Shown here piece after piece: positions 23,261-42,184 of a stretch of 58,072 nucleotides of DNA (position 1 is the first letter of the stretch; every line of letters starts with the position of its first letter). The notes below the pieces were generated by a model that saw nothing but the letters and a program-made list of their open reading frames with translations, was not told the origin of the DNA and made no database searches. Location of the stretch: positions 1-58,072 of the forward strand of contig CALXKU010000017.1 in the NCBI GenBank assembly GCA_944389025.1. Direction: 5' to 3'. Origin of the DNA: an uncultured Spirochaetaceae bacterium (GTDB lineage: Bacteria > Spirochaetota > Spirochaetia > Sphaerochaetales > Sphaerochaetaceae). The position numbers were made by a program, and so were the translations under genes.

Positions 23261-23291
23261 CGGTTTTAAATAAAGAAAAAAGGAGTAGAAG

Positions 23292-24557
23292 ATGAGAAAA
23301 TTATTATCAATCGCTTTGGTTATGATTCTTTCCCTCTCCCTTTTCGCAGGCGGTGCGAATGAGAGCACAGTTGCGGATGGTGAAGGTACGTCAATCGTCT
23401 GGGCAGGCTGGTCCGGAGAGGAAGAGGCTACAAGGGATATCTTCCAGAGGATGAGAACAACTTATGAAGAGATGAGCGGAAACACCGTTAACTGGGTTGG
23501 CTGGACATGGGCTGATACCGCACAGCAGCTTCTGATCAGGCTCCAGGGAGGAGAACAGCTGGATATCGCACAGGCTGATATCGGCATTTTCAACACAGTG
23601 GCGCAGACTGGAACGCTTGCAGACCTGAATGAGGTATTCGGCGAGGAGTGGCTCAAAGAGAATTTTGCGGAAGCAACCCTTGCTGTTGGACAGATTGATG
23701 GTAAGCAGCTCGGTCTTCCTTGGTCGATGGCTTCTATCACAATGGTATACAATCCAGAGATCCTTTCCCGTGCCGGATGGGACACCGTTCCTACAACTAT
23801 CGAGGAGTTTGAAGCATGCATGGCAGATATTGCAGCACTTGGAGAGGGCATAATCCCGTACGGAGTATCAACAAAGGATGATACGGCAGCCGGTGACCTC
23901 ATGCCATGGCTCTGGACATTTGGAACAAGCCTCTTTAACGAGGATGGAACTGTTAACCTCGGACCTGAGGCTGTTGATACGATCAACTGGTACAAAGACA
24001 TGCTTGCAAAAGGCTATATCCAGATGGATATCGGAAGGGGAGATGCACGTCAGCTCTTTGCACAGGGCAAGATGGCGTTCTATGATGATGCCGTTGTTGC
24101 TAAGGGCCAGGCTGTAAGCGCCGGAGTCGATCCTGCAGAGGTCGTTAACGTATGTTCTGCAATGCCTCGTCCTGTCCTAAACGAGGGTGATGAGAGTCAG
24201 AGCACGATGTGGGGTCACATGCTTGTCATATTCGATTCCTCAAAGCATAAGGATACTGCAGCTGATTTCGCTAAGTTCCTGATCAGCGATGAGGTGGCAC
24301 TTGAGTATTTCGAGCAGAACGGTATGCCTCCTGTAACCAACAGTGCGGCAAATACCGAGGAGGTCCTCAATGATCCGTATCTCAAGGGATTCCTCGATGC
24401 TACCGCTACGGCAAAACTTGATGAGACTGCAAGAATGACAAATGCAAGTGAAATCAAGACAATAGTGGTTGAGGAGCTTCAGAGAACGCTTCTTGGACAG
24501 ACAACAGCTGAAGAGTGTGTTGAGAACATGAGAGCAAGACTCAGTTCTGCGATCTGA
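23292..24557 (+). CDS. Extracellular sugar-binding protein of second ABC importer
   Basis: 421 residues with a signal peptide (MRKLLSIALVMILSLSLFAG) followed by GANESTVAD, a style common in Sphaerochaeta-like binding proteins. SBP_1-type features include VWAGWSGEEEATRDIF, the LDIAQADIGIFN segment and LGLPWSMASITMVYNPEIL. It binds a sugar outside the membrane for the two permeases that follow at 24581 and 25488. The ribosome site is AAAGGAG. The preceding oxidoreductase suggests the substrate is an oligosaccharide processed in the cytoplasm. Confidence 0.94.
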   Translation: MRKLLSIALVMILSLSLFAGGANESTVADGEGTSIVWAGWSGEEEATRDIFQRMRTTYEEMSGNTVNWVGWTWADTAQQLLIRLQGGEQLDIAQADIGIFNTVAQTGTLADLNEVFGEEWLKENFAEATLAVGQIDGKQLGLPWSMASITMVYNPEILSRAGWDTVPTTIEEFEACMADIAALGEGIIPYGVSTKDDTAAGDLMPWLWTFGTSLFNEDGTVNLGPEAVDTINWYKDMLAKGYIQMDIGRGDARQLFAQGKMAFYDDAVVAKGQAVSAGVDPAEVVNVCSAMPRPVLNEGDESQSTMWGHMLVIFDSSKHKDTAADFAKFLISDEVALEYFEQNGMPPVTNSAANTEEVLNDPYLKGFLDATATAKLDETARMTNASEIKTIVVEELQRTLLGQTTAEECVENMRARLSSAI

Positions 24558-24580
24558 TATTGTTTTAATGGAGGAGTATT

Positions 24581-25471
24581 ATGGCGAAATTCAAGAATAA
24601 CGGACGGCTTACTGATACACAGACGGGAGTGCTTCTGGTAATCCCGGGCCTTGCGGTCTTTATCGCCGTAATACTCTATCCGTTCATCAGTGCGATCCTG
24701 ATGTCTTTCACGGACCGCTCTCTATTAAACCCCAATTCGAATGTGGTCGGTTTTGAGAACTACGTGAAGGTGTTCTCTGATCCGTACTTTTTCAAGACCG
24801 TGTGGACGACGGTGGTCTTTGTCGTCTTTGCCACGCTGATACCTTTCACCCTTGGACTCATATGGGCTATCGTTCTCAATCAGGGATTTCGCCTCAGTGA
24901 GTTTTTAAGGGGTGTCACACTGGTTAACTGGATTATTCCAGGAACTGCGATAGGTTTCCTCTGGTCGTGGATATTCAACGGTCAATATGGAATACTTAAC
25001 GGACTGCTGACTTCTATGGGAATAATAGATGAGAACATAAGCTTTCTCGGACAGCCGGTAAGCGCTCTAATCTGCGTCATAATAGCCAGAAGCTGGCAGA
25101 TGCTTCCATGGTATATGGCGTTCCTTCTTGGAGGACTGCAGTCTGTGCCTCAGGACAGGATTGAGGCGGCCAGAATCGATGGGGCTAACAATCTTCAGAC
25201 ATTCAGGTATATCGTGATTCCCGGAATGCGTCAGATCTTCTTCCTCGTGCTCATCCTTGGAGCAATAGGCAATCTGCAGCATTTCGATATTCCGTGGACG
25301 ATGACGGAAGGCGGTCCTGCAAGGGCTACCACAACCCTTTCCATCGAGGTATACCGTACAGCTTTCAAGAACTGGAAGCTTGGGCAGGCTGCGACTGTCG
25401 GAACAGTGTGGGCGATTCTGCTCCTTCTCTTCTCGGTAGTCTATCTGAAACAGGTCAAAGAATCTGATTGA
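24581..25471 (+). CDS. Sugar ABC transporter permease (MalF/UgpA type)
   Basis: 296 residues with six predicted membrane helices. The EAA loop is seen as RIEAARIDGANNLQTFRYIV, near residue 190-210. It pairs with the next permease as the channel of a CUT1 importer. The ribosome site is GGAGG, seven bases before the ATG. The gene follows the binding-protein gene by 23 bases, with no terminator in between. Confidence 0.94.
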   Translation: MAKFKNNGRLTDTQTGVLLVIPGLAVFIAVILYPFISAILMSFTDRSLLNPNSNVVGFENYVKVFSDPYFFKTVWTTVVFVVFATLIPFTLGLIWAIVLNQGFRLSEFLRGVTLVNWIIPGTAIGFLWSWIFNGQYGILNGLLTSMGIIDENISFLGQPVSALICVIIARSWQMLPWYMAFLLGGLQSVPQDRIEAARIDGANNLQTFRYIVIPGMRQIFFLVLILGAIGNLQHFDIPWTMTEGGPARATTTLSIEVYRTAFKNWKLGQAATVGTVWAILLLLFSVVYLKQVKESD

Positions 25472-25487
25472 AAGGGGGTAGTGGAAT

Positions 25488-26318
25488 ATGTTTCAGAAAA
25501 CATTGGCATTCAGGATTTTCTTCACAGTGTCCCTCTTTTTAATCGGATGTTTCGTCTTTCTTCCTCTTCTCTGGATGATTAACACGGCCCTAAAGCCTGC
25601 GGATAAGACATTCACACTTTACTTTTTCGCCGGGGAACTCACTCTGGATAACATAATCGGAATCCTCAGTGATAAAACCATCATGACGTATCTCAGGAAT
25701 TCGCTTATCGTATCGTTCCTTTCATCGTTCATGGCGACTCTGGTATCATCTTTCGCTGCCTACAGCTTCTCGAAGTTCCGTTACCGCGGGAGAAAGGCGA
25801 TCATGGGTGCTTTCATGATGAGTCAGGCATTCCCTCAGGCGATATTGCTACTTGCCATCTATCTTATGATGCAGCGCTTCCATCTGCTGGGCTCCTATTG
25901 GTCGCTGCTAATAAGCTATGTTGTCTTCACACTTCCTGTCGGCACATGGACTCTCAAGGGGTATTTTGACGGGATATCCAATTCCTTAATCGAGAGTGCG
26001 AAGATAGATGGAGCGGGGAACCTGAGAATCATGACACGAATAGTGTTCCCGATGGCGATTCCCGGCATGATATCGATAGCCATATACGGTTTCGTATGGT
26101 CCTGGAATGATCTGCTCTATGCTATGACGCTCGTAACCGATCCGTCACGCAGAACACTTGCCCCGGGTCTTGTCATGACATACCTTGGGGAAGCCAGCAC
26201 GAACTGGGCGGCGATGATGAGTGCTTCGATTGTCGCGTCCATACCGGTAACAATCATATTCGTCTTCCTGCAGCGCTATTTCATAACAGGTCTTACAAGC
26301 GGTGCGGTGAAAGAGTGA
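25488..26318 (+). CDS. Carbohydrate ABC transporter permease (MalG/UgpE type)
   Basis: 276 residues, six membrane helices. It has the MalG-like early segment LWMINTALKPADKTF and the EAA loop LIESAKIDGAGNLRIMTRIV near residues 165-185. It completes the membrane part of the second CUT1 importer. As with the first importer, no ATPase gene is present, so a shared ATPase encoded elsewhere is expected. The operon ends here; the next gene has its own promoter. Confidence 0.94.
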   Translation: MFQKTLAFRIFFTVSLFLIGCFVFLPLLWMINTALKPADKTFTLYFFAGELTLDNIIGILSDKTIMTYLRNSLIVSFLSSFMATLVSSFAAYSFSKFRYRGRKAIMGAFMMSQAFPQAILLLAIYLMMQRFHLLGSYWSLLISYVVFTLPVGTWTLKGYFDGISNSLIESAKIDGAGNLRIMTRIVFPMAIPGMISIAIYGFVWSWNDLLYAMTLVTDPSRRTLAPGLVMTYLGEASTNWAAMMSASIVASIPVTIIFVFLQRYFITGLTSGAVKE

Positions 26319-27295: not shown

Positions 27296-28105
27296 TTATT
27301 TCATGTATTCTGGAATGATTCCCGAGTATCCCATTTCTCTTGATGCCTGCCTGCTTATATCGAGCATGAAAGGGACTATCCTGTCAAAATTGTTTTCATT
27401 CACGACTGTGGCAGACCCAGAGAGGTTTATCGCAGCTATTATCTTGTTTGAGATGTCATAAACAGGGACGGAAACGCATCTCAGTCCTATTTCAAACTCC
27501 TCGTTGTCAAGTGAATACCCATGGGCTCTGATCCAATCCAGTTCTTCTTTTAGTTTATCAAGATTGGTATACGTGTTCTTCGTATACTGGGTAAGACCAT
27601 GAACCCTGCTGTACTTCTCAATCTCTTCCCATGTATGGTTAAGCAGATGGATTTTACCACCTCCCGTAGCATGCATAGGTCCGATTTTCCCCAGTCTTGT
27701 AAGAGCTTGCATTATCCTCGTGTTGCTGATCTCCGATGCTATATATACCATCTGCATATCACTCTCAACACTTATGGAAGCGGCTTCATTGAATTCATTG
27801 ACGACATCAAGCAGGTACTTCTCCAGAAGGGTTTTCAGAGAGAAGTTGAGTTTCGTCTTGTTTCCTAGCAGCGTCAGTTTGTATGTTAGCTGATAGAATC
27901 TTCCATCACTTTCGCAGTGTTTGATATACCCCTGGTCTATAAAAGTATTGACCAAGCGCAGTGTCGTAGCAGGAGGGAGCGAAACGGATTCCGCAATATC
28001 CTGAAGCCTGACTGGACGTTCGAATTCTGTCATCGCTTCCAGTATCCTTAAAGCTTTTATCAGGGCCTGATTCTGTTTTGTTCCTTTTGTTTTTTCCATA
28101 TTCAT
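27296..28105 (-). CDS. IclR-family transcriptional regulator
   Basis: 269 residues. The N-terminal winged helix-turn-helix reads LRILEAMTEFERPVRLQDIA, then LPPATTLRLVNTFIDQGYI. The C-terminal effector domain (residues about 90-260) contains MHATGGGKIHLL, the family-typical RAHGYSLDNEEFEIGLRC and VPVYDISNKIIAAINLSG. It is divergent from the SDR/TctBAC operon and shares a 100-base promoter region with it. It probably controls uptake of the TctC ligand. A second IclR gene at 39001 belongs to the same cluster; the two differ in sequence and may respond to related molecules. Confidence 0.93.
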   Translation of the reverse strand: MNMEKTKGTKQNQALIKALRILEAMTEFERPVRLQDIAESVSLPPATTLRLVNTFIDQGYIKHCESDGRFYQLTYKLTLLGNKTKLNFSLKTLLEKYLLDVVNEFNEAASISVESDMQMVYIASEISNTRIMQALTRLGKIGPMHATGGGKIHLLNHTWEEIEKYSRVHGLTQYTKNTYTNLDKLKEELDWIRAHGYSLDNEEFEIGLRCVSVPVYDISNKIIAAINLSGSATVVNENNFDRIVPFMLDISRQASREMGYSGIIPEYMK

Positions 28106-28189: not shown

Positions 28190-28215
28190 TAGAAATCACT
28201 TTTATGGAGAATGTA

Positions 28216-28980
28216 ATGAAGGACCTTTTCTCTTTGGATGGAAAGATTGCGCTACTTTTCGGGGGTGGTGGGGATATATCTATAGCCGTTGCCCGTGCTT
28301 TTGCAGACTATGGAGCAAAAATAATACTCTCCGACAACTCTAAAGAACATCTGCAGAAAGCTAAAGAGGTTCTTTCCTCTGATGGTTTCGATGTGGAGAT
28401 CCAGGAGGGTAGCATAACTGATGTTGCATTCATCAGGTCCCTTGCTGATAGTATTTACTCCCGTTATGGGAGACTTGATATCCTTTTCAACAGCGCTGGA
28501 GTCACATATCGCAAAAGTATTCGGGATATGAGCAATGAGGAATGGATGAATATCGTAGATGTGAATCTGAATGGTACATACCATGCTCTAAGGGAGTTCG
28601 GACTGAGAATGTGCGATCAAGGACATGGGCACATAATCCAGGTGCTCTCAACCGGAGCATATCGCTTTGGTGCAAATTTCGTCGCATACGGTGCTACCAA
28701 GGCGGCCCAGAGTGCTCTGATAAAAGGCCTTGCGATAGAATGGGCTCCTTATAACCTCAATGTAAACGGAATCGCACCGACTGCGACAGAGACGAATTTC
28801 ACAAGGGATTATTACAGGGAAAATCCTGAGAAGATGGAAGCCACAAGGAATAATCATCCTTATAAGAGGCTTGGCAGGCCAGATGATTATGTGGGGGCTG
28901 CGATATATCTTGCCTCAGATGCCTCCGCGTTTGTAAACGGTGAAGTGATAATAGTTGATTCTGGAAAGACGGTGAAGTGA
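28216..28980 (+). CDS. SDR-family NAD(P)-dependent dehydrogenase
   Basis: About 254 residues. The Rossmann cofactor loop reads LLFGGGGDISIAVARAF, a slight variant of GxxxGxG. Other short-chain dehydrogenase marks are LFNSAGVTYR, the catalytic serine in STGAYRFG, and YGATKAAQ with the catalytic Tyr and Lys. The end reads ASAFVNGEVIIVDSG. It oxidises or reduces a hydroxyl or keto group, probably on a sugar acid or polyol given its neighbours. GGAG at 28206-28209 supports the ATG at 28216 over the one at 28204. It is the first gene of the TctBAC operon. Confidence 0.93.
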   Translation: MKDLFSLDGKIALLFGGGGDISIAVARAFADYGAKIILSDNSKEHLQKAKEVLSSDGFDVEIQEGSITDVAFIRSLADSIYSRYGRLDILFNSAGVTYRKSIRDMSNEEWMNIVDVNLNGTYHALREFGLRMCDQGHGHIIQVLSTGAYRFGANFVAYGATKAAQSALIKGLAIEWAPYNLNVNGIAPTATETNFTRDYYRENPEKMEATRNNHPYKRLGRPDDYVGAAIYLASDASAFVNGEVIIVDSGKTVK

Positions 28981-29540
28981 TGAGTGCGGAAAAAAGCGTG
29001 AAGAAAATAAGGATTATGACGGAAACCGGATGTTCTTGCGTTGCTGAGCGTCTTTTCTTCAGGATGATGAATGTAAAAAGGATCGCATTAAGCTTTCTCC
29101 TGCTTGCGTTTTTCGCAGTGTTGGTTTCTGCTGTCGGTTTCGATAACAAGGCATCCTCTCCGCTTTTGATTCTTTCTTCAATTTTCGCTCTGCTTTTTCT
29201 TTGCCTACTTCTATATGTTCTGAAAATAAGGCCTGAGATGATTGGCAACATAAGGAAAGAGGATCGGATGCAAGGAGAGGGGATTTTCACTCCATCTTCC
29301 TTTTCTGTTGATTTCGGAGAGGGAAAAATCAATCTGGATTATAAGGCTATAAAGGGACAGTTCTGGTATGGTGACCATTATTTCCTCTTCATCGATTCGA
29401 AGAATTATCGAAGTATAGTGGCTTTTCCAGTTGTGGAGGGCACGTTTGATAGCGTATATATGCTGGCCGATTCTCTGACTAGGAGGAAAATCAGGCTGGT
29501 TCAGATAAAAAGCAAAAATAAAAAAGGAGAAAATGAATGA
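28980..29540 (+). CDS. Membrane protein with YcxB-like C-terminal half
   Basis: About 186 residues. The ATG at 28980 overlaps the SDR stop codon (TGATG). Two hydrophobic helices lie at about residues 32-55 and 60-82 (IALSFLLLAFFAVLVSAVGF, LLILSSIFALLFLCLLLYVL). The soluble C-terminal part, with FSVDFGEGKINLDYKAIK and HYFLFIDSKN, resembles YcxB-like domains. It also overlaps the start of tctB by four bases, so it is translated with the operon. Function unknown; the link to tricarboxylate-type uptake may be only positional. Confidence 0.65.
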   Translation: MSAEKSVKKIRIMTETGCSCVAERLFFRMMNVKRIALSFLLLAFFAVLVSAVGFDNKASSPLLILSSIFALLFLCLLLYVLKIRPEMIGNIRKEDRMQGEGIFTPSSFSVDFGEGKINLDYKAIKGQFWYGDHYFLFIDSKNYRSIVAFPVVEGTFDSVYMLADSLTRRKIRLVQIKSKNKKGENE

Positions 29541-30001
29541 AGCAGCTGATTTTGGAGAGAGTGAGGAAGATCGTATCGATTGTCCTCTTTCTCGTCGGCA
29601 TACTGGCTCTTGTCGTAACACTTTCCACGATGAAAGTCGGTTCTTTCACAAAGCCTCAGGAGGGATTCACCCCAGTCTTGTTCTCCATACTGCTAATCGG
29701 TTTTTCCATACTCAATATCGTTATTGAGTTCATAACACCGAATAGCATCCCTGGAGAGCTTAAAGATGTTAACTGGAAGAAGTTCTTCCTCTATTTCGCA
29801 ATATGTATCGTATATGTCTTCCTTGTAAAGAAGATCGGTTTCGCAACAGATACGTTCATCTGTCTGGCTCTCATGCTGAAACTTGCCGGTCTTAAGGGGT
29901 GGGTGAAGACCATTGTCATATCATTGATAGTAAGTGTTCTCATATGGGCGCTCTTCACACTTGCAATGGGTGTGCCACTACCGGCAGGAATTCTGATTTG
30001 A
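29537..30001 (+). CDS. tctB: TctB-like small subunit of a TTT transporter
   Basis: 154 residues with four hydrophobic helices, the size and layout of the TctB subunit. The mid segment DVNWKKFFLYFAICIVYVFLV and the last helix ending MGVPLPAGIL are typical. It works with TctA in the inner membrane for cation-driven uptake. It overlaps the preceding gene by ATGA, and the next gene starts 14 bases later. Confidence 0.88.
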   Translation: MKQLILERVRKIVSIVLFLVGILALVVTLSTMKVGSFTKPQEGFTPVLFSILLIGFSILNIVIEFITPNSIPGELKDVNWKKFFLYFAICIVYVFLVKKIGFATDTFICLALMLKLAGLKGWVKTIVISLIVSVLIWALFTLAMGVPLPAGILI

Positions 30002-30014
30002 GGAGGAATGGATT

Positions 30015-31529
30015 ATGTTTGACTCGTTGCTTTTACTTTTGAACGGCTTTGTCGACTGCTTGTCTCTTATGAACATATTCTGTGCCATTGTGGGATCTCT
30101 TCTTGGGTCCCTCATCGGTGTGCTTCCCGGTCTCGGGATATCGGGAACGGTTGCCATTCTGCTTCCTCTGACATACGGGATGTCTCCGCTTTCGGCTCTC
30201 ATCATGATTTCCGGCATATATTTCGGATCCCAGTATGGCGGAGCAATAACATCCATCCTCGTGAATATTCCAGGTGAGGCCACAAGTATCGTCACATGTT
30301 TCGACGGTCATCCGATGGCAAGAGAAGGAAAGGCTGGAAAAGCTCTCTGTATTTCTTCGATAGCTTCCTTTGTCGGAGGCTTCATTGGAACGCTGGGCCT
30401 TACATTCGCAGCTGCCGCACTTGCCCGTGTCGCGCTTTCCTTTGGAAAGGTCGAATTCTTCGCCATAGTTGTTTTCGGCTTGCTTCTGCTGACAAGTATA
30501 TCCGGCAAGAACCAGCTCAAAGGGCTCATCTCTGTTGCTTTGGGCGTTCTCCTCGGTTGTGTCGGGCTTGATTCCCTATACGGAAAGGCCAGGTTCACAT
30601 TCGGCATCGTGAATCTTTACAGCGGCATTGATTTCGTAACCTTCATCATGGGTGCATATGGCATCACGGAATTGCTTAAGGCGATCTGCATTCCTGAGGA
30701 GCAGGGTGAGGTCCTTGAGTTCAGTCTTCGTGATCAGTTCCCGAATAAAAAGGACTACAAGGAATGCTGGCTACCGACTTTAAGAGCAAGCGTTCTCGGT
30801 TTTGCTGTCGGTCTTGTTCCTGGCGCGGGCTCCACTCTTTCTACATTCTTCGCATATGGAATGGAGAAGGGACTTAGCAAGCATCCAGAGAAATTTGGAA
30901 CAGGTGTGCCTGAGGGGATTGCCGCACCTGAGGCTGCAAACAATGCCGCCATGTATGCTGGTCTGGTACCTTTACTTAGCCTTGGCCTCCCATTTACCAG
31001 TTCAATGGCGCTTTTGATGAATGCCTTCATAATCCACGGCATAACCCCAGGACCACTTTTCATATCTGAGCATCCTGATCTCTTCTGGGGACTGATAGCT
31101 TCGATGTTCCTTGGAAACATCATACTGCTAATCATAAATCTCCCATTCGTCGGACTCTGGGCGAGGCTTCTTAAGGTCGATTTCAATATCCTGATGCCAC
31201 TTATCACATTCATAACGTTCGCAGGCGGATATGCGATTAATTACAGTGTGTTCGATATGGGAATGATGGTGGCATGCGGTTTTGTCGGATTCTTCCTCGG
31301 CCAGTGCGGATATAATATGGCGGCCTTGGCCGTCGGACTCTTCCTCAGTCCTACGTTTGAAGGATCATTGCTTGGCACGATGACGCTATACCATGGTGAT
31401 ATCTTTGCCGCTCTATGGGACAGAAAACTTGCATTGGTAATAATCATCCTCGGCATTGCAGCTTTCATATTCTCCTCCGTAAAGAGTTCCAGAAAGTTCT
31501 TCGCGGAAAGGAATGCCATGAAAGCATGA
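30015..31529 (+). CDS. tctA: TctA-like large subunit of a TTT transporter
   Basis: 504 residues with about twelve membrane helices. Typical TctA motifs are GVLPGLGISGTVAILLPLTY, the YGGAITSILVNIPGE segment, VGLVPGAGSTLSTFFAYG and the GIAAPEAANNAA stretch. It is the transport channel for carboxylates delivered by the TctC protein encoded next. AGGAGG precedes the start. Such transporters carry citrate, tartrate, malonate, terephthalate and other acids, so the substrate cannot be named from this subunit. Confidence 0.95.
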   Translation: MFDSLLLLLNGFVDCLSLMNIFCAIVGSLLGSLIGVLPGLGISGTVAILLPLTYGMSPLSALIMISGIYFGSQYGGAITSILVNIPGEATSIVTCFDGHPMAREGKAGKALCISSIASFVGGFIGTLGLTFAAAALARVALSFGKVEFFAIVVFGLLLLTSISGKNQLKGLISVALGVLLGCVGLDSLYGKARFTFGIVNLYSGIDFVTFIMGAYGITELLKAICIPEEQGEVLEFSLRDQFPNKKDYKECWLPTLRASVLGFAVGLVPGAGSTLSTFFAYGMEKGLSKHPEKFGTGVPEGIAAPEAANNAAMYAGLVPLLSLGLPFTSSMALLMNAFIIHGITPGPLFISEHPDLFWGLIASMFLGNIILLIINLPFVGLWARLLKVDFNILMPLITFITFAGGYAINYSVFDMGMMVACGFVGFFLGQCGYNMAALAVGLFLSPTFEGSLLGTMTLYHGDIFAALWDRKLALVIIILGIAAFIFSSVKSSRKFFAERNAMKA

Positions 31530-31576: not shown

Positions 31577-32575
31577 ATGAAAAAAGTTCTTTTATCGTTA
31601 CTCGTTCTGCTTATGGCAGTGACCATGGTCTTTGCACAGGGACAGAAGGAAAGTGGAAGTGTGGATGCTGATGGCAACTGGACTCCATCAAAGGAAGTTT
31701 CCGTTATCGTCTCATATGCTGCCGGTGGAAGCACGGATCTTCTCGCGAGGACATTCGCGAATGAAGCCGCTTCCGTATGGGCTACACCTCTGGTAATTAA
31801 TAACATGCCTGGTGGTGGAAACGCTATCGGATTCTCAGCCCTGAGACAGGCAGCTCCTGATGGACTTACAATCGGAAATACCAATTCATCCGTTGTCGTC
31901 AACTGTCTGACAGGAGAGACTCCATTCGTCTACTACGAGGAACTCCAGCCTATTTGCCAGGTAGGTTTCGCTCCTTATATCGTTTATGTTGCAAAGGATA
32001 GCCCGATTCAGAATCTTGCTGACCTCGAAGAAGCAGTCAAGACCCGCGATGTAGTCATGGCCGCAAATAATCGTGGTGGGCAGACTCATTGGGAGCTCGA
32101 ATACTTTGCGATGAAAGTCGGTTCTGATATCACAGCTGTCATTTATGATGGAGGATCTGCCTCGATAGCAGCAGTTCTTGGAGGACATGCCGAGGTGACT
32201 GTTCAGGCACCTTCCGACGGACAGGAATATGTACGCTCCGGAGATCTCAGGGCGATTGCAGTACTTGATGACGCAAGGCTTGAGACCGATATATACAAGG
32301 ATGTGCCTACATCGGTTGAGCAGGGATATGGATGGCTTCAGAACGGATTCTTCCATGGCTACTCAGCTCCTAAGGGAATCGGAGAGGCTCAGCTCAAGTA
32401 TTTCGAGGACGGCTTCAAGAAGGCTCTTGAGATCCCAGAGGTAAGGGAGAAGATCGAGTATTACGGTTTTACTGTTGACTATCAGGATGCCGAAGGCTTC
32501 AGACAGGTCTGGCTTGATACTGTTGAGCAGTATAAGACGGTTATTGCTGAGCTTGGAGACCGCCTGACAGAATAG
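31577..32575 (+). CDS. tctC: TctC-like (Bug family) periplasmic binding protein
   Basis: 332 residues with a signal peptide (MKKVLLSLLVLLMAVTMVFA). Bug-family marks are VIVSYAAGGSTDLLART near residue 45, VINNMPGGGNAIG, and the DGLTIGNTN segment. The protein captures a carboxylate and delivers it to TctAB. The gene ends in a strong terminator, so this subunit closes the first transcript while the three paralogous genes downstream depend on read-through or another promoter. Confidence 0.95.
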   Translation: MKKVLLSLLVLLMAVTMVFAQGQKESGSVDADGNWTPSKEVSVIVSYAAGGSTDLLARTFANEAASVWATPLVINNMPGGGNAIGFSALRQAAPDGLTIGNTNSSVVVNCLTGETPFVYYEELQPICQVGFAPYIVYVAKDSPIQNLADLEEAVKTRDVVMAANNRGGQTHWELEYFAMKVGSDITAVIYDGGSASIAAVLGGHAEVTVQAPSDGQEYVRSGDLRAIAVLDDARLETDIYKDVPTSVEQGYGWLQNGFFHGYSAPKGIGEAQLKYFEDGFKKALEIPEVREKIEYYGFTVDYQDAEGFRQVWLDTVEQYKTVIAELGDRLTE

Positions 32576-32596
32576 TTTCCTCTGATTTTGAAGGTT

Positions 32597-32631
32597 TGCC
32601 GGATTGTCATGCCTGGCAGTCCGGCATTTTT
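32597..32631 (+). terminator. Strong intrinsic terminator after tctC
   Basis: The 12-base arms at 32597-32608 and 32615-32626 (core TGCCGGA / TCCGGCA) pair throughout, with two G-T wobbles, around a six-base loop, followed by TTTTT. It lies before the ribosome site of the next gene. Confidence 0.85.
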
Positions 32632-32644: not shown

Positions 32645-34330
32645 ATGCCTGATTTTAAAGACAGACTACTTGAAATACATGGATCGAACATGTGGAGTGG
32701 CTATCATGTCAACAGAGCAATCGAATTTGCCAGAAGATATGACATGACCGGCATCATCTTCCATGCGAATGACATAATAGACAAGGCTATCAAACCGGAT
32801 AGGTATTTCTCTCCGAACGAATCCCTTCTGAAATTCAATAACAGGGACGGGGATACGAAGAATTATAAGTACTATCTTAAGAATGCAATCGATAAGATAA
32901 CCGATTCCGGCCTTGAATTCTATGCCGAAGTCAAGGAGATTTATTTCGCATATGAGCTCCTTGAACAGATGCCGGGATTAAGAAAGGAAAATGGTGCACT
33001 ATGCCCGACAGACCCGTTCTGGTGGGAGTTCCTGGATGCGAAGCTAGAAGAGTTCGCATCAAGATTTCCTCGCGTTTCAGGTGTGATTGTCAGCGCTGGT
33101 ACAAGGGAGAGCATGGTCTCTCTTGCTGATAACAGATGTACCTGTGAGCGTTGCAAGGGTTATTCGATGGATGAGTGGTATCGTCGGCTCATTGAGACGA
33201 TGTTTCTCGCCCTTGACCGTCATGGTATGAAGCTGATTGTCAGGGAATTTTCTTATACTGCGGATCATCAGTATGCGATGATAGATGCGGCACGTGAGAT
33301 TTCAGATAAGATAATAATCGCTATAAAGAAAGCTCCTCACGATTATTATCCGACATTTCCGCTCAACCCTACGGCAGGAAACTGCGGAGGCCTTGAGGAG
33401 TGGATTGAATTCGATACTTGGGGACAGTACTTCGGCCTTGGTGTCATGCCGGCCAGTGTTTTAGAGGACATGCAGGAAAGACTGCGCTATTACAAGGCGA
33501 AAGGTGCTGATGGTATCATGCTAAGGACGGACTGGGAGAGGCTGTTAAACGGAAGTTCGTTCAATTCGTTTTCAATGCTGAATCTTATTGGCGGGGCAGA
33601 ATTGGCAAAAAATGTCGAGTGTCCCGTGGAAAAAATATATTCAAAGTGGCTTGAGTATGGACTATTAAGCCCGCTTGAGGAGGACGATACGTTCCCCCAG
33701 ACGCCATCGATGCCAAAGAACCCGAATGCTCGTGACATTCTCATGAGATTCATGCAGGATTCATGGCGCGTACAGGAGAAGGCAATATATGTGCGGGGCC
33801 ACGTATTCAACCGCAATGCACAGATGTTTGACAGATATTTCCTCACTTATTTCATCATGACAGTGCAGCACACCAGGGATCACTGGGATAAGGGTGCGAG
33901 CCGTCTTGTGGAACCTACGGAAGAGAACATGAGGGCGATCATAGATGAAAAGGATGAGGCGGTAAGGATAGCCAAATCCATGCGCGACTATCTTAATCCA
34001 TCTGAGCTCGGGGTAAGTGCGGATGTGGAGAAATATCTTTATTTTCTCCTCGATGCGTATCCCCTTTATGCGGAGATATTCAGGGCTCAGATAATAAGTG
34101 CGATGTATATAAGAAGGGTGGAGGTCTATAAGGATAGCACATATCTGGAGAAGGCCTTCTCTTCCCTTGATGTCTTCCCGTCCCTTGCAGAGCGGCTTGG
34201 CGCTATGGTGGATGGGCATCATTATACGAACAATGTTGAGTACGTTCTTGATAAGGACAGGATTCTGCGTTTTAAAGCTGACTGCGAGCGCGTTTTGGAA
34301 GAATTAAGAAAAAAAGGAGAGATGAAGTGA
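32645..34330 (+). CDS. Uncharacterised glycosidase-like protein, paralog 1 of 3
   Basis: About 561 residues, no signal peptide. It alternates predicted strands and helices as in a (beta/alpha)8 barrel for the first 350 residues, followed by a mostly helical 190-residue tail. Motifs shared with the next two genes: LEIHG near the start, EVKEIYF, CPTDPFWWEF, GTRES, the cysteine cluster CTCERC, PHDYYP, EFDTWGQYFGLG and RTDWE. The acidic residues in these are candidates for catalysis and the CxCxxC cluster for a metal site. Overall style resembles glycoside hydrolases acting on acidic sugars, but I cannot assign a family. The start is the ATG at 32645, after AAGGAA; an earlier codon lies inside the terminator. 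Confidence 0.75.
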   Translation: MPDFKDRLLEIHGSNMWSGYHVNRAIEFARRYDMTGIIFHANDIIDKAIKPDRYFSPNESLLKFNNRDGDTKNYKYYLKNAIDKITDSGLEFYAEVKEIYFAYELLEQMPGLRKENGALCPTDPFWWEFLDAKLEEFASRFPRVSGVIVSAGTRESMVSLADNRCTCERCKGYSMDEWYRRLIETMFLALDRHGMKLIVREFSYTADHQYAMIDAAREISDKIIIAIKKAPHDYYPTFPLNPTAGNCGGLEEWIEFDTWGQYFGLGVMPASVLEDMQERLRYYKAKGADGIMLRTDWERLLNGSSFNSFSMLNLIGGAELAKNVECPVEKIYSKWLEYGLLSPLEEDDTFPQTPSMPKNPNARDILMRFMQDSWRVQEKAIYVRGHVFNRNAQMFDRYFLTYFIMTVQHTRDHWDKGASRLVEPTEENMRAIIDEKDEAVRIAKSMRDYLNPSELGVSADVEKYLYFLLDAYPLYAEIFRAQIISAMYIRRVEVYKDSTYLEKAFSSLDVFPSLAERLGAMVDGHHYTNNVEYVLDKDRILRFKADCERVLEELRKKGEMK

Positions 34331-35997
34331 GAAGAGGTTATCAGGACAGGATACTTGAAATTCATGGATACAACATGTGGAACATGTTTCACGTGGACAG
34401 GGCGATAAAATTCGCTGAGAAATTCAAGATGACGGGAATAATATTCCATTGTAACGATCTTATTGACAGAATGGTGTTCCCGGAAAAGTATTTTTCAAAA
34501 GACGAGCTTTTGGCTTACAATCCCGTGCGTAACAGCGTTACGAAAAGCAACAGGTATTACCTCAGATCCGTGCTTGATAAATGCCATGAGGCAGGTCTTG
34601 AGTTCTATGCCGAGGTCAAGGAGATATATTTCCCATACGATCTGCTTACAAAATATCCAGAGCTCAGAAAATCCAATGGACAGCTTTGCGCCTCCGATCC
34701 ATTCTGGTGGGAGTTCCTGGAAGCGAAATATGATGAGTTCTTCTCTCTTTTCCCAGATGTTGCGGGAATCAGCGTAAGCCCCGGCACAAGGGAGAGCATG
34801 GTAAGTCTTGCAGCAAACAGGTGCGATTGCGAAAGATGTAGGAGTTATGATATCGACCAGTGGTATCATAACCTTCTTGAAGCGATGCATAAGAGCATAT
34901 CAAAAGCAGGAAAGAGGCTTATTGTCAGAGATTTCTCTTATACGAAGAAACATCAGTTCGCGATGGTGGATGCCGCTCGCGGCGTAAGCGAGGATATCAC
35001 GATGTCGATGAAGATGGTTCCTCATGACTATTACCCGGTCTTCCCTGATAATCCTGCAATCGGGAATACAGGCGGGATGAGACAGTGGGTCGAATATGAT
35101 GCCTGGGGTCAGTTCTTCGGACTTGGAGTGTTCCCATGTTCTGTTGCTGAGGATATGCAGGGTAGGATGCTTAGGTACTATGACAAGGGCGCCTCAGGAG
35201 TCACGATAAGAACGGACTGGGAGAATATGGCGCAGTCCAGCACTTTCTGCTCATTCAACATGCTCAATCTCGTGGCAGGGGCCATGCTCAGTTATGATAT
35301 AGATACTCCAATGGATGAGATTTACAGGGCTTGGGCCGAGGAATACGGACTGGTATCTCCTTTGATTCAGGATTCCTTCCCTCAGATTCCATACAGGGTG
35401 AGTGATGCCTCATCGATTGAAAAGCTTCATTCATTAATGGTCTATGGCTGGAAAGCGATAGAAAAGGCTATCCACATCAGGGGACATGTTTTCAACCGTA
35501 ACTCGCAGATATTTGACAGGTATGACCTGCCATACAACATAATGACCGTATTCCATAGCAGGGATCAGTGGGAACCTGATGCTCATAAGAGGGTGGAACC
35601 TACAGACGAGAATATTCCGATCATTCTGGATGAGAAGGATGAGGCGGTAATGTACGCTTCAAAGGTCGCCACACTGGCAAAGGATCTCATAGGTGTGACC
35701 GATGATGAGAACATCAGAGCATATCTTACTTTCCTTGTGAAGGCTTTCCCTCTTTATGTGGAAGGATTCAGACTCGAGGCCGAGACTCTCATGTATGCGA
35801 AGAGGGCAGAGGCAGGAAATCCTTGCTACCTTGAGAAGGCGAAAAAAAGTCTTGAGAAATATGATGATCTTGCATCCCGATATAAGGATATTGCCGCACA
35901 TAAGGGATATTCCGGCATTGTTGAATACATGCTCGATGGCGATCGTCTGATACGCTATAAGCATGGCGTTGAGAAAGCTCTAGGCATTGGAGAGTGA
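34327..35997 (+). CDS. Uncharacterised glycosidase-like protein, paralog 2 of 3
   Basis: 556 residues, by eye about half identical to paralog 1 over its full length. The same motifs occur: LEIHGYNMW, EVKEIYF, DPFWWEF, GTRESMVS, CDCERC, RDFSY, PHDYYP, EYDAWGQFFGLG and RTDWE. The GTG start at 34327 overlaps the stop of paralog 1 by four bases, after AAAGGAG, so the two are translationally coupled. No signal peptide. The pair probably arose by tandem duplication and could form a hetero-oligomer or act on different linkages of one substrate. Confidence 0.75.
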   Translation: MRRGYQDRILEIHGYNMWNMFHVDRAIKFAEKFKMTGIIFHCNDLIDRMVFPEKYFSKDELLAYNPVRNSVTKSNRYYLRSVLDKCHEAGLEFYAEVKEIYFPYDLLTKYPELRKSNGQLCASDPFWWEFLEAKYDEFFSLFPDVAGISVSPGTRESMVSLAANRCDCERCRSYDIDQWYHNLLEAMHKSISKAGKRLIVRDFSYTKKHQFAMVDAARGVSEDITMSMKMVPHDYYPVFPDNPAIGNTGGMRQWVEYDAWGQFFGLGVFPCSVAEDMQGRMLRYYDKGASGVTIRTDWENMAQSSTFCSFNMLNLVAGAMLSYDIDTPMDEIYRAWAEEYGLVSPLIQDSFPQIPYRVSDASSIEKLHSLMVYGWKAIEKAIHIRGHVFNRNSQIFDRYDLPYNIMTVFHSRDQWEPDAHKRVEPTDENIPIILDEKDEAVMYASKVATLAKDLIGVTDDENIRAYLTFLVKAFPLYVEGFRLEAETLMYAKRAEAGNPCYLEKAKKSLEKYDDLASRYKDIAAHKGYSGIVEYMLDGDRLIRYKHGVEKALGIGE

Positions 35998-35999
35998 CT

Positions 36000-37694
36000 A
36001 TGGACGCTGATTTCAAGATTCGTGCACTGGAGATACACAGCCTCTACGCATGGGATTTCTCACACGTAATGAAAACCATGGATATTATGGACAGGCTGAG
36101 CTTCAATACGCTCATTATTCACAGAAATGATATTGTGGAGATGCTTGAGTATCCTGGCTTCATTTTCGGATATAAGAAAAAAGTGGCTGATGATTCGCTT
36201 TTTGACGTGTATGGTCAGTGCTTCAGAAAGATATTCAGAAATACTCCGACACGAAGGTCGAATATATTCAACAAACGGGCGTACATGAAAAGGGTCCTTG
36301 CAGAAGCTGGTAAGAAAGGAATCTCCGTTTATATTGAGAATAAGGAACTCTATTTCCCTGATATCCTCCCCGAATTGAGACCTGAACTCATAAGAGATGG
36401 TCATGTATGTCCAACCGATCCTTACTGGACTGGATATATAAAAGCAAAGTTTTCTGAGTTCTTCAGGGATTATCCTGAAGTAAAGGGTGTCATAACCAGC
36501 ATAGCGACCAGTGAGAGCAAGATTTCGATAAAATCAAACAGGTGCCATTGTGAACGCTGTAAGTCGACTCGGAGCGAGGACTGGTATCGTACGATTCTCA
36601 GCGCGATGCATGATGTTCTCTCCTCTCTGGGAAAGGAACTCGTAGTACGTGATTTCGTATTTGATTCTCAGTCTCAGAAGGAAATAGCGAGCGTGATGGA
36701 GGGCTTGGATGACGATGTGATCATATCCCTTAAAAACACTCCTCATGACTACTATCCGACATTCCCTGTAAATAAGAGGATAGGGGATGTTGGAAATCAT
36801 AGGCAGTGGGTTGAGTTCGATACGATGGGGCAGTACTATGGCATGGGAGTCGGGGTTGCCGATCTCATGGAAGACTACAGGTTCCGTCTCGAGGATGCGA
36901 AAAAGAAAGGGGTGGAGGGTGTTATTTTCAGAACCGATTGGGAGAGTCTTGACGGACATTCCGTTTTTAAGACTCCCAATCTGATCAACGTGTATTCAGC
37001 TGCCATGCTCTCTTTGGATGTAAGTACTCCGGCAAGGGATATCTATGGCAGATTCGCAGATGCGGAAGGATGGATATGCGGTGAGGTGGAGGAAGCGGTT
37101 GATTATCTGAAATCCGTATATGAGAACACTTGGAGTGTTACAAGCCGTACAGTCTTTGCCGACGGTTGCGTTTTTTCCGATTCCAGTACCATGCCAATCA
37201 GCATGGAACACGCACTCTGGCTTGCTGAGGAGAAGAATTCACTCAGGGACTGGGTCCCTGAAAAAAAGGATAGTCTTTCCCCTCTTAGGTCATCCTTGGA
37301 GAAAGTATTCAGGGAAAAAGATGAGGCATTGGAGGATCTGAATCGTATTATCGGAATCTCCGATGCTGTTCCTCCTTCCATCAACAAGGAGAAAGGAGAA
37401 TGGCTTAAGAACTGGATGCACGTCAACAAACTGTATCTTGAAATGTTTTCTACCTGTACGAAAGCGGTAATGGATGCACGTTATCTTACTCAGAGTACTG
37501 AGAATGATGAAGCTTTCAGGTGTGAGAGAAGAAAATCTTTTTCCTCTCAGCTTTCAGCTCTCCTTGAGCTGGAAGAGCAGTTTTCTGTATTATGGGCGAA
37601 GACCGATTACGCAGAGCATGTGATTTACACGTTGCTAGATCCTGACAGGATCAGATGTCTTCGAAGAAATCTAATGTCGCTTAACATTATCTGA
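36000..37694 (+). CDS. Uncharacterised glycosidase-like protein, paralog 3 of 3
   Basis: About 564 residues, clearly homologous to paralogs 1 and 2 but more diverged. Conserved parts are LEIHS, ENKELYF, CPTDPYW, CHCERC, VVRDF, PHDYYPTFPVN, EFDTMGQYYGMG and RTDWE. The GTRES motif has become ATSES. An extra loop of about 15 residues sits near position 75 (TPTRRSNIFNKR). The start codon lies two bases after the paralog 2 stop. Retention of the acidic motifs in all three argues for active proteins. The iron-type alcohol dehydrogenase gene follows directly. Confidence 0.75.
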   Translation: MDADFKIRALEIHSLYAWDFSHVMKTMDIMDRLSFNTLIIHRNDIVEMLEYPGFIFGYKKKVADDSLFDVYGQCFRKIFRNTPTRRSNIFNKRAYMKRVLAEAGKKGISVYIENKELYFPDILPELRPELIRDGHVCPTDPYWTGYIKAKFSEFFRDYPEVKGVITSIATSESKISIKSNRCHCERCKSTRSEDWYRTILSAMHDVLSSLGKELVVRDFVFDSQSQKEIASVMEGLDDDVIISLKNTPHDYYPTFPVNKRIGDVGNHRQWVEFDTMGQYYGMGVGVADLMEDYRFRLEDAKKKGVEGVIFRTDWESLDGHSVFKTPNLINVYSAAMLSLDVSTPARDIYGRFADAEGWICGEVEEAVDYLKSVYENTWSVTSRTVFADGCVFSDSSTMPISMEHALWLAEEKNSLRDWVPEKKDSLSPLRSSLEKVFREKDEALEDLNRIIGISDAVPPSINKEKGEWLKNWMHVNKLYLEMFSTCTKAVMDARYLTQSTENDEAFRCERRKSFSSQLSALLELEEQFSVLWAKTDYAEHVIYTLLDPDRIRCLRRNLMSLNII

Positions 37695-37706
37695 AGGAGG
37701 ATGGGG

Positions 37707-38990
37707 ATGAACTACAAGGAAAGAGCTTATAGCTTATTGAAAGACTGGAAGAAGGACGATTACCTTATGGGTGTCGGCTGTCTTTCTGAGATTGGAAAGA
37801 GGGCAGTGGCTTTTGGGCACCGTGCCTTGGTCATTGCAAACATGGGACATATAGGAGAGACTGTATCAGCTGTTATCAGAAGCCTTGAGCTCTCCGGAAT
37901 AGAGGTCATAACGGGAAAAGCCGTCAAAGGTGCGAAAAATAACGCCCCCCTTGATGATCTTTACCGGCTTGTGGCCACAATCTTGGCTTATGAGCCGGAT
38001 TTCATAGTTGCCATCGGTGGCGGTTCTACACTCGATGTGGCAAAGGCGGCAAACACTGTTGCAACTCTTGCTAAAGAAAATGGGATTGATGTTAACCCAT
38101 ATTTCGGTACGGGGAAAGTATCTGAAAGCCTTAAAAAGGAAGGAAAAAAACTTCTTCCGCTTATAGCGGTGGAAACCGTCTCTTCCTCCGGCAGTCATCT
38201 TACCAAGTATTCTAATATCACGGATATGAGCACAGGGCAGAAGAAACTGATTGTTGATGATGCAATTACCCCGTCCCTTTCTGTTTTTGATTACAGTGTT
38301 ACCTCTTCTCTTCCGATATCGACAACTCTTGAGGGTATACTTGATTCGCTTTCGCACTCATATGAGGTGTTCTGTGGAGCTAAAGGGGAGAAGTATGATA
38401 AGGCAAAAGAGGTCTTCACCGTATGTGTAAATCTTCTTTTCACGTATTCCGAACGTCTTATCAACAACCCTCATGACGTGGAGGCAAGAGAGGCCATTGG
38501 GCTTGCAAGCGATCTTGGTGGGTATGCGATCATGATTGGTGGAACTTCAGGAGGCCATCTTACCTCATTTTCTCTTGTCGATTCCATGCCTCATGGACTT
38601 GCTTGTGGAATCATGAATCCGTATTACACCGTATTTTACAGCTCAGCAATTGAAGAGCAGCTGAAGGTTTTTGCAGAGATTCTTTCTTCCTATGGTTATG
38701 CTGAGCATTCGATTTGCGGTCTCTCTGGAAGGGACCTTGCCGAAGCTGTAGCAAAGGCAATGCTGAGATTCAACAGGACGATCGGTGCTCCGGTAAAATT
38801 AAAGGATGTTCCCTCATTCAACCCTGACATCCACATTCCTCGGGCTCTCTCTGCCGCCAAGGACGATGATTTGAAGATGAAGCTTCAGAACATGCCGGTT
38901 CCTATGACCAAGGATGATGTGGATGAGTACATGGCACCCATACTCAATGCTGCAGCAGATGGCGACTTATCGATAATAAAGACGATGTAG
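37707..38990 (+). CDS. Iron-containing alcohol dehydrogenase family protein
   Basis: About 427 residues. The NAD-binding segment is FIVAIGGGSTLDVAKAANT, with the GGGS motif. Candidate metal ligands are the D and H residues in the region DSLSHSYE and later SMPHGLACG, with a further histidine expected near the C-terminal third. Family members reduce aldehydes or oxidise alcohols, and some act on sugar acids. A GGAGG at 37696-37700 places the start at 37707 rather than the ATG at 37701. It follows paralog 3 by 12 bases and probably belongs to the same transcript, acting on the product of the paralogs. Confidence 0.88.
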   Translation: MNYKERAYSLLKDWKKDDYLMGVGCLSEIGKRAVAFGHRALVIANMGHIGETVSAVIRSLELSGIEVITGKAVKGAKNNAPLDDLYRLVATILAYEPDFIVAIGGGSTLDVAKAANTVATLAKENGIDVNPYFGTGKVSESLKKEGKKLLPLIAVETVSSSGSHLTKYSNITDMSTGQKKLIVDDAITPSLSVFDYSVTSSLPISTTLEGILDSLSHSYEVFCGAKGEKYDKAKEVFTVCVNLLFTYSERLINNPHDVEAREAIGLASDLGGYAIMIGGTSGGHLTSFSLVDSMPHGLACGIMNPYYTVFYSSAIEEQLKVFAEILSSYGYAEHSICGLSGRDLAEAVAKAMLRFNRTIGAPVKLKDVPSFNPDIHIPRALSAAKDDDLKMKLQNMPVPMTKDDVDEYMAPILNAAADGDLSIIKTM

Positions 38991-39000: not shown

Positions 39001-39786
39001 TCAGGGCATTCCTCTGAAGCCGAGTGCCCTTGACGACTCTTTTGCTATGTTTTTCATGAACAATACAGCCTCTTTCTCATCTTGAAGTCTCTGTATAGGG
39101 CAGGAGAGGCTTATTGTTGCAATAATCTGCCCAGTATATGACATTACAGGGACGGCAAGCGTCTTGAATCCTACCTCATGCTCTTCCTTGCTCCATGCGA
39201 AGCCACGCTTCATAGTCTCTTCCAGTTCCCCCTTCAGATCATCGAGGGCGCATATCGTGTTTTCTGTGAATTTATAAAAAGGTCTTCTTTCTTGCAGTAT
39301 TCTCAGCTTCTCCTCGGAGTACTCGGTAAGGAATATCTTCCCCTCCGCAGTGCAATGCATGGGTACGACCTTTCCTATTCTTACATTGCTGCTTAACAGA
39401 CGGTTTGAATCTCCTACGCAATCCAGATATACGACCTGCATGTTGTTCTCAACACATAGCGATGCCGTCTCCTGAAAGTGTCTGGATATCCTTTCAACAT
39501 ATTCATGAAGATTATCCGTGAGCTGATAGTTGTTCATGCAGTAGTATCCTATTTCTGCAAGTTTTAAGGTGAGACTGTACGTCTGAGCCTCATCGTTTCT
39601 TTTCACATAGCCGCATTCTATGAAAGCATTCAGGAATCTGTACACTGTGCTGGATGAAAGGCCGGAGTCATTTGCGATATCGAGCAATCGCATCGGTTTC
39701 CTGTAGGAGACCATTTTCTCGAGAATCAGCATTGCTCTGCCTAGGGATATGTTCTGTTTCTTGCTTTTCACATCCTTGTCATCCAT
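39001..39786 (-). CDS. IclR-family transcriptional regulator (second)
   Basis: 261 residues. The winged helix-turn-helix reads MRLLDIANDSGLSSSTVYRF and LNAFIECGYVKR. The effector domain contains PMHCTAEGKIFLTEY and the family-typical RGFAWSKEEHEVGFKT. It lies between the paralog/dehydrogenase operon, whose end faces it, and the divergent hydroxyacid-dehydrogenase/larA operon, whose promoter it probably controls. The ribosome site GGAGG lies before the ATG. It is related to, but distinct from, the IclR protein at 27296. Confidence 0.93.
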   Translation of the reverse strand: MDDKDVKSKKQNISLGRAMLILEKMVSYRKPMRLLDIANDSGLSSSTVYRFLNAFIECGYVKRNDEAQTYSLTLKLAEIGYYCMNNYQLTDNLHEYVERISRHFQETASLCVENNMQVVYLDCVGDSNRLLSSNVRIGKVVPMHCTAEGKIFLTEYSEEKLRILQERRPFYKFTENTICALDDLKGELEETMKRGFAWSKEEHEVGFKTLAVPVMSYTGQIIATISLSCPIQRLQDEKEAVLFMKNIAKESSRALGFRGMP

Positions 39787-39890
39787 TTTGCCTCCATCAA
39801 TAACTCCTGTTTAGATCATTATGAATATTTTATGATGTATGTTTTGAAAAAGAAAGGGGAAAAGTGGCTATTGGTATTGAAAATGAAAAA

Positions 39891-40909: not shown

Positions 40910-42184
40910 ATGGCTGAGCAAATAAAGATTCCATATGCAAGGACTTCCCTTTCCTTCTCTCTCGAGGAGGGAAGGGACTGTGTTATCGCTGAGAATAATC
41001 TGGACACGTTTTCTCCACCTTTTGGTGAAGATGAGATTCTGGATTACGCTTTCTCCCATCCGATAGGATCTCCTTCCCTTTCTGAACTCGCTAAAGGGAA
41101 AAGCAATATCGTGATTATCGCCAGTGATCATACCCGTCCGGTTCCAAGCCGTCAGATAATCCCTAGAATGCTGAAGGAGATAAGAGCATCATCCCCTGAT
41201 GCCTCCGTTACGATTCTGATTGCCACAGGTTGTCATCGTTGCAGTACGGATGATGAGCTGAGAGAGAAATTCGGAGAAGAAGTATTCGAACATGAAAGAA
41301 TCGTAGTGCATGATTCTGCTGATGAATCGTCTCTGGTTTCGATTGGAAGACTTCCCTCTGGCGGTGATCTCAGAATAAATAGGATAGCTTTCTCTGCTGA
41401 CCTTCTGATAAGTGAAGGTTTCATAGAGCCACATTTCTTTGCGGGCTTTTCGGGTGGAAGGAAGAGCGTGCTTCCCGGCATTGCTGCGGAGGATACTGTT
41501 TTTTATAATCACAACGCGGCTTTCATCAAAGATGCGAAAGCACGTGTTGGAATACTTGATGGAAATCCGATTCACGAGGATATGATTTACGCGGCGAGAA
41601 AAGCAAAGCTCAGATTCATCGTGAATGTCGTCCTGAATACGGAACACAGGATCATCGGAGCTTTTTCCGGTGATGTTGATGCAGCACACAGGAAGGGCGT
41701 CCAATTTCTTTCATCTCTTGCTGGAATCAGCATGCGGAAAGCTGATTTCACAATAACATCCAACGGCGGCTATCCCTTGGATCAAAATATATATCAGGCT
41801 GTTAAGGGTATGTGCACCGCAGAGGCCTTCACCAAGCCTGGGGGTGTCATCATAATGGCCTCCTCATGTGTTGATGGTCATGGAGGGGATGCGTTCTATT
41901 CCACTTTCTCATCTGGAAAGAAAGCCTCTGATATCTTGAAGGAAATAGAGGCAAGAAATATGAATGAAACTCGGAAGGACCAGTGGCAAAGCCAGGTGTT
42001 TGCCAGAATCCTGTCACGTTATACGGTCATTCTCGTATCTGAGGCAGATAGGAGTCTTGTCGAAAGCATGCAGATGATTCCTTCTTTTAGCATAGAGGAT
42101 GCTGTTAGTAAGGCTGATGAAATATTGGGAAAGAAAGGAACTATCAATGTGATTGCTAATGGAATAGCGAGTATCCCATCATAG
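40910..42184 (+). CDS. larA: LarA-family nickel-dependent racemase/epimerase
   Basis: 424 residues, the usual LarA length. Family motifs: ASDHTRPVPSRQ near residue 68, EPHFFAGFSGGRKSVLPGI with the lysine that binds the nickel-pincer cofactor, and YNHNAAF following. LarA interconverts L- and D-lactate; relatives act on malate, other 2-hydroxyacids and D-gluconate. The cofactor-making genes larB, larC and larE are not in the window. It starts three bases after the hydroxyacid dehydrogenase with no clear ribosome site, so translation is probably coupled. The gene ends six bases inside a convergent MATE gene. Confidence 0.9.
   Translation: MAEQIKIPYARTSLSFSLEEGRDCVIAENNLDTFSPPFGEDEILDYAFSHPIGSPSLSELAKGKSNIVIIASDHTRPVPSRQIIPRMLKEIRASSPDASVTILIATGCHRCSTDDELREKFGEEVFEHERIVVHDSADESSLVSIGRLPSGGDLRINRIAFSADLLISEGFIEPHFFAGFSGGRKSVLPGIAAEDTVFYNHNAAFIKDAKARVGILDGNPIHEDMIYAARKAKLRFIVNVVLNTEHRIIGAFSGDVDAAHRKGVQFLSSLAGISMRKADFTITSNGGYPLDQNIYQAVKGMCTAEAFTKPGGVIIMASSCVDGHGGDAFYSTFSSGKKASDILKEIEARNMNETRKDQWQSQVFARILSRYTVILVSEADRSLVESMQMIPSFSIEDAVSKADEILGKKGTINVIANGIASIPS

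Follow-up and report, generated by a model that had tools for sequence, protein, structure and literature searches.

Three tandem genes of a spirochaete operon belong to a GH67-related enzyme family with an invariant cysteine cluster

To which enzyme family do three genes lying end to end in a spirochaete operon belong, and on what might their products act? The genes, here called copies A, B and C, lie in a stretch of 58,072 nucleotides (the window; positions 1 to 58,072 of contig CALXKU010000017.1, assembly GCA_944389025.1) from an uncultured Spirochaetaceae bacterium. We find that they represent an enzyme family of the GH67 superfamily (GH, glycoside hydrolase) that fails several features of GH67 membership. 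An initial reading of the DNA letters, made without database searches (the sequence-only reading), had described three tandem paralogues of about 560 residues with overlapping or abutting ends and a set of common motifs. The three open reading frames are complete and bear out this arrangement:

32645–34330, forward strand: copy A, GH67-like family protein of 561 amino acids, ATG start, backed by the upstream hairpin
34327–35997, forward strand: copy B, GH67-like family protein of 556 amino acids, GTG start; candidate acid E156, candidate base D234, and Q262 at the GH67 Glu392 position
35994–37694, forward strand: copy C, diverged subfamily, 566 amino acids, GTG start; alternative ATG at 36000
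32597–32626, forward strand: hairpin plus T-run, resembling a terminator (by consensus match only), that separates the transporter genes from those of the three enzymes

The A/B and B/C junctions are each a 4-nucleotide overlap, GTGA. Copy A could also be read from a TTG at 32588; because this longer reading would cross the 13-pair hairpin and its T-run, ATG 32645 is the likely start. Copy C may begin at ATG 36000 instead of GTG 35994. Pairwise identities are 52% (A/B), 32% (A/C) and 30% (B/C), and the similarity spans approximately 550 aligned residues. Each of the motifs listed earlier was located in all three copies: LEIHG/S (LEIHG in A and B, LEIHS in C), E(V/N)KE(I/L)YF (EVKEIYF in A and B, ENKELYF in C), CxCERC (CTCERC, CDCERC and CHCERC in A, B and C, respectively), E(F/Y)D..GQ(Y/F)(F/Y)G (EFDTWGQYFG, EYDAWGQFFG and EFDTMGQYYG) and PHDYYP and RTDWE, which are identical throughout. 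As the similarity extends over this length, the same motifs recur in 31 further homologues, and a set of polar residues is invariant in 34 of 34 members, chance resemblance is excluded.

The suspicion that the proteins match no known glycoside hydrolase family was justified in that no model in Pfam, NCBIfam or PHROGs reaches its cut-off on A, B or C; this uncurated status is judged against those three collections and leaves room for a recently numbered CAZy family. Among Pfam models, GH67M (PF07488) alone gives a recurrent, if weak, signal: copy C scores 13.3 bits on it against a gathering cut-off of 23.5, with no match for A and B. Five of 23 family members touch this model (best E value 0.028), and PF07488 has no match in the window's own genome. 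DUF4838 (PF16126) also stays short of its Pfam cut-off, touched by 1 of 23 members with an E value of 0.038. Searches of phages, viral contigs and PHROGs returned no family member and thus give no indication of phage origin, and a literature search found no paper on the family.

AlphaFold2 models of B and C, built from 23-sequence alignments, have high overall confidence (predicted local distance difference test (pLDDT) 91.6 and predicted template modelling score (pTM) 0.91 for B; 90.7 and 0.91 for C). Both show a (β/α)8 barrel with its eight strands in order, followed by an all-helical C-terminal domain (from about residue 312 in B), in line with the TIM barrel and helical tail predicted by the sequence-only reading. 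The comparison set that it had named, GH67, GH115, GH20 and GH84, was also apt, as all four return structural matches in Foldseek or VIA-align. In Foldseek searches of the PDB, the GH138 α-galacturonidase BP0997 and GH67 α-glucuronidases lead for both models (E values of about 1e-13 to 1e-12), with BP0997 (6hzf, 6hzg) the first match for each (E value 3e-13 for B). VIA-align superimposed model B on GH67 1l8n with Z 23.6 and a root-mean-square deviation (rmsd) of 4.0 over 414 residues, and model C with Z 24.2 and rmsd 4.3 over 436 residues. The catalytic barrel and the helical C-terminal domain of GH67 (AguA of G. stearothermophilus, 1l8n/1k9e; GlcA67A of C. japonicus, 1gqi) are thus both present, at 10–14% identity in the structure alignment. 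Residue 2 of model B aligns with 1l8n residue 139 and the proteins begin at strand β1; hence the GH67 N-terminal domain is absent from the family. Against GH138 6hzg, model B aligns over its whole length (489 of 556 residues, Z 22.1, rmsd 4.1), lacking the extra N-terminal part of GH138 chains; model C reaches Z 20.5 with 6hze, a lower rank that is no evidence against GH138. GH115 (BoAgu115A, 4c90/4c91) has a related core fold and matches copy C with Foldseek E values of 4e-7 to 3e-6 (about 1e-6), a comparison of fold only. GH20C, likewise a barrel with a helical region, scores Z 21.7 with B and 23.1 with C at larger rmsd, and GH84 about Z 20.5. Z scores alone therefore fail to separate these families; sequence does separate them.

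A single-sequence search of the PDB gave nothing useful. With a 23-member profile GH67 became the top match (E value 0.084), and with a 34-member profile, to which deep members had been added, its E value fell to 1.1e-4 with barrel and helical tail both aligned; GH138 gave no sequence-level match in this search. Comparison by hhalign in local mode with five spirochaete GH67 proteins yielded a probability of 91 and an E value of 9.5e-7 over 378 columns, against 0% for reversed GH67 and 0.7% and 2.4% for the unrelated TIM barrels UxaC and UxuA; global mode gave 0%. With the profile search and hhalign in agreement and the controls near zero, there is good evidence that the family and GH67 share descent.

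The alignment of the 34 members to GH67 runs ungapped through the active-site region, equating K359, P362, D364, E386, E392 and G395 of GH67 with K229, P232, D234, E256, Q262 and G265 of copy B. In addition, the motif of the GH67 general acid (Glu285) aligns with E156, and the Arg of the GH67 IWRAFVY motif with R201. For the roles of GH67 residues we draw on the PDB titles of 1k9e (E285N) and 1mqr (E386Q) and otherwise on general background. E11, H41, K98, E99, E156, R201, K229, D234, E256, R295, D297, W298 and E299 are invariant in 34 of 34 members, so that the positions of the catalytic acid, Asp364, Lys359 and Glu386 are all retained. In the predicted models, the invariant acids lie at the C-terminal ends of strands β4, β6, β7 and β8, as in GH67. 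In GH67, Asp364 and Glu392 are the base carboxylates, and this pair is not kept as such: the Asp364 equivalent is present in every member, whereas at position 262 two deep members, L037 and L043, have Glu and the other 32 have Gln. These two look intermediate toward GH67 in their motifs as well (PQDFYPTFP and PQDYYQTFP; EYEVMGEYFG and EYETFGEYYG). GH115 has no active-site residues in common with GH67 (PMC3879575), unlike the present family. E156 sits in a T/S-[RGSK]-E-S/A motif and is not directly preceded by Asp in any of the 34 members.

A further difference from the aligned GH67 proteins is a cluster of four cysteines, C121 plus the CxCxxC motif C166, C168 and C171, invariant in 34 of 34 members. 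The motif recurs at the equivalent place, after strands β3/β4, in 2 of the 12 DUF4838 proteins that we compared, and an upstream Cys of theirs aligns with C121. DUF4838 as a set matches the family with a profile probability of 75, the two Cys-motif sequences alone with only 33%; unlike the family, its open frames are here mostly 600–2100 amino acids long and the equivalents of D234 and E256 are not clear. The sequence-only reading had taken the acidic residues and the cysteines to imply catalysis with a bound metal. This claim found no support: although the cysteines are invariant, the same cluster recurs in some DUF4838 proteins and the strand ends carry catalytic residues that match those of GH67 and involve no metal, which makes metal-dependent catalysis through the cluster scarcely credible. 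Given this recurrence and the GH67-like placement of the acids, C121 and CxCxxC more likely hold a zinc ion that would be structural rather than catalytic.

The three genes stand within an apparent operon, flanked by two regulators:

27296–28105, reverse strand: IclR-type regulator, divergent from the operon; grouped by BLAST with the other IclR gene (39001)
28204–28980, forward strand: SDR-family sugar/polyol-type dehydrogenase (model scan)
28977–29540, forward strand: small 187-residue protein (x187), conserved at five loci, where it lies upstream of TctB (neighbourhood comparison)
29537–30001, forward strand: TctB-type membrane subunit, named from our reading of the sequence and BLAST clustering
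30015–31529, forward strand: TctA-type membrane subunit, conserved neighbour, named likewise
31577–32575, forward strand: TctC-type solute-binding protein of a tripartite tricarboxylate transporter (TTT), conserved neighbour, named likewise
37701–38990, forward strand: iron-containing alcohol dehydrogenase (model scan), beginning 6 nucleotides after the end of copy C; probable last operon gene
39001–39786, reverse strand: second IclR-type regulator, convergent with the operon (model scan)

The hairpin at 32597–32626, which separates the TctC gene from copy A, is strong and may attenuate the enzymes relative to the transporter. Across 25 gene contexts, an importer with a solute-binding protein lies within 6 kb of the family gene in 23 (TTT in 10, carbohydrate-type ABC in 11 and peptide-type ABC in 2), the transporter type being independent of the enzyme subfamily. 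Of the two importer-less contexts, one is a contig of 4 kb and the other lies at a contig end; two of the loci, L004 and L018, are contigs of one genome. An SDR gene is adjacent in 14 of the 25, comprising 12 by tally plus L008 and L012, where the open-reading-frame picker had missed it. The cargo of TTT and TRAP systems is mostly carboxylates, and among the known substrates of TTTs almost every one bears two acidic or comparable groups (PMC5812351). Moreover, the layout parallels the aldouronate cluster of Paenibacillus JDR-2, in which an intracellular GH67 enzyme, GH10, GH43 and an ABC importer occur together (PMC4765114). A, B and C have no signal-peptide-like N-terminus. Because an importer for acidic molecules adjoins them, imported acidic sugars are a probable substrate, and uronides, on which the sequence-only reading had suggested screening purified proteins, are our best guess.

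Other neighbours vary. In various loci they include SDR proteins, 2-hydroxyacid dehydrogenases, FAA hydrolase, an RraA-like aldolase, AcnX and an MFS lactate/oxalate transporter. A GH28 gene lies near the [Clostridium] asparagiforme homologue. On Pelagibacterium halotolerans pPHB2 (L078, 4050 bp), a GH43 xylosidase gene and an SDR gene accompany an unannotated family gene that runs across the origin; this 'plasmid' holds those three genes only, with no annotated replication gene, and is possibly an assembly artefact. As evidence for pectin we considered and set aside a Klebsiella aerogenes relative (LR134122.1, L077:12016–13675), a distant sequence that is broken across two frames and has RhiN and polygalacturonase genes for neighbours: TPERFWP replaces PHDYYP, CxCxxC is gone, and the HD and Cys motifs are thus lost, and with its active site degenerate it is a mere hint of a pectin substrate. 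PF03747 ADP-ribosylglycohydrolase-family proteins adjoin deep members in two genomes (L054:7522–9522 and L056:11009–13099). Elsewhere in the window, positions 40910–42184 encode a LarA protein that exceeds the NCBIfam threshold for nickel-dependent lactate racemase, and a 2-hydroxyacid dehydrogenase gene adjoins it at 39890. Positions 21494–26318 hold a flavin adenine dinucleotide-dependent oxidoreductase (PF12831) and an apparent ABC sugar importer, with an AraC regulator nearby, a second likely carbohydrate locus.

A scan of 84,980 species genomes with two peptide patterns, which gives a lower bound, found at least 16 loci, spread over spirochaetes, Clostridia, Paenibacillus and two metagenome-assembled genomes (MAGs) of Pseudomonadota. 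In the genomes sampled the family is rare and patchy, occurring in 7 of 48 from the window's own genus, 2 of 393 of a phylum sample and 3 of 397 sampled from the [Clostridium] citroniae family group. In the tree, A/B and C form the two main clades; A groups with L004 and L005, B with L005, and C with L019 and L005. Each copy groups with the corresponding gene of [Clostridium] citroniae, and the order SDR-x187-TctB-TctA-TctC-A-B-C is common to both organisms. On this orthology and shared order, A, B and C are an old, long-diverged set of paralogues that moved between phyla as a cassette, not a product of local duplication. The earlier proposal that tandem retention reflects division of labour stands in part: homologues occur in one to three copies, not always two or three, and about half of the genomes have a single copy; nevertheless, three old orthologous lineages have been kept together in another phylum, which argues for distinct roles. 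The reading frame of copy B in the Spiro_01 MAG (L004:5109–6778) is broken near codon 234, which leaves the gene in two frames, by pseudogene formation or sequencing error. In Acetatifactor muris, a Tn916-type integrase (L007:14662–15855) lies about 3 kb from the family gene, consistent with mobility.

Taken together, we consider it probable that A, B and C belong to an uncharacterised cytoplasmic glycoside hydrolase family, distant kin of GH67 and GH138, that removes uronic acid in exo fashion from an acidic glycoside, possibly a glucuronide or a galacturonide, imported by the TTT; substrate and stereochemistry are both inferred. Several observations weigh against this assignment. We found no family homologue with known activity and no other glycoside hydrolase in the window operon; the Glu392 position is Gln in most members; and the GH20 and GH84 folds come close to GH138 by Z. 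The loop 232–234 of model B has a pLDDT below 50. (The GH67 catalytic acid likewise sits on a mobile loop (PMC3879575).) The neighbours LarA, FAA hydrolase, RraA-like protein and AcnX suggest acid catabolism that is not necessarily of sugars. Co-occurrence with the uronate isomerase gene UxaC and with UxuA (21/23 and 20/23 carriers) was tried as support for uronate metabolism and dropped; for UxaC the genus baseline is 43/48, so it is uninformative and lends no support.

Several other assignments can be set against the same data. GH138-type α-galacturonidases acting on pectin-derived oligosaccharides would fit the leading, whole-length BP0997 match, the nearby GH28 gene and the setting of the K. 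aerogenes relative, yet this is rather unlikely, as the likeness to GH138 in fold comes with no detectable sequence similarity, and the K. aerogenes protein lacks the HD and Cys motifs. That the proteins are simply diverged GH67 α-glucuronidases on xylan-derived aldouronates draws on GH67 being the closest relative in structure and the only significant one in sequence, and on the GH43 xylosidase and SDR genes beside one homologue; the sub-threshold GH67M scores, the missing N-terminal domain, the Gln at Glu392, the four cysteines not seen in the aligned GH67 set and the lack of xylan genes in the window operon make it unlikely. Much the same standing falls to non-hydrolytic enzymes built on a GH67-like barrel, such as lyases or epimerases, that would serve sugar-acid or hydroxy-acid catabolism. 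The acid-catabolism neighbours and the loss of the Glu392 equivalent would favour them; against them, the GH67 acid and base-Asp positions are retained and invariant, and while those neighbours vary, importer and family gene are constant. GH20 and GH84 enzymes carry an adjacent acid pair after strand β4. A substrate-assisted β-N-acetylhexosaminidase of this kind would account for the Z scores of 20–23, but it is very improbable: there is no Asp before E156, the full-length rmsd is larger (6–9 Å), the invariant Arg/Lys set suits a uronate, and the importers are of an acid type.

For the favoured exo-acting uronide hydrolase, the following route can be proposed. A small acidic glycoside would be imported by the adjacent TTT and cleaved at a terminal uronic acid by A, B and C. 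R201, K229 and nearby basic residues would hold the uronate carboxylate, E156 (after β4) would protonate the leaving group, and D234 (after β6), possibly assisted by Q262 and/or D258 (after β7), would activate water or, less likely, serve as nucleophile; C121 and CxCxxC would probably bind the structural zinc. Further processing of the cleavage products may then fall to the SDR and the iron-containing dehydrogenase. The three copies probably have different specificities for linkage or aglycone, and they came within the cassette shared with [Clostridium] citroniae.

It is plausible, although short of probable, that these proteins constitute a new glycoside hydrolase family of the GH67/GH138 superfamily, combining a zinc-knuckle barrel and a base Glu392-to-Gln replacement with cytoplasmic dismantling of uronides fed by a TTT. 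Neither Pfam nor NCBIfam has a curated model for the family, whose members occur in gut bacteria and are spread over Spirochaetota, Bacillota and Pseudomonadota. The association with TTT importers points to a pathway for acidic glycosides that annotation pipelines overlook, and the Glu-to-Gln exchange at the GH67 base, with Glu kept in two deep members, offers a direct test of a change of mechanism within one fold.

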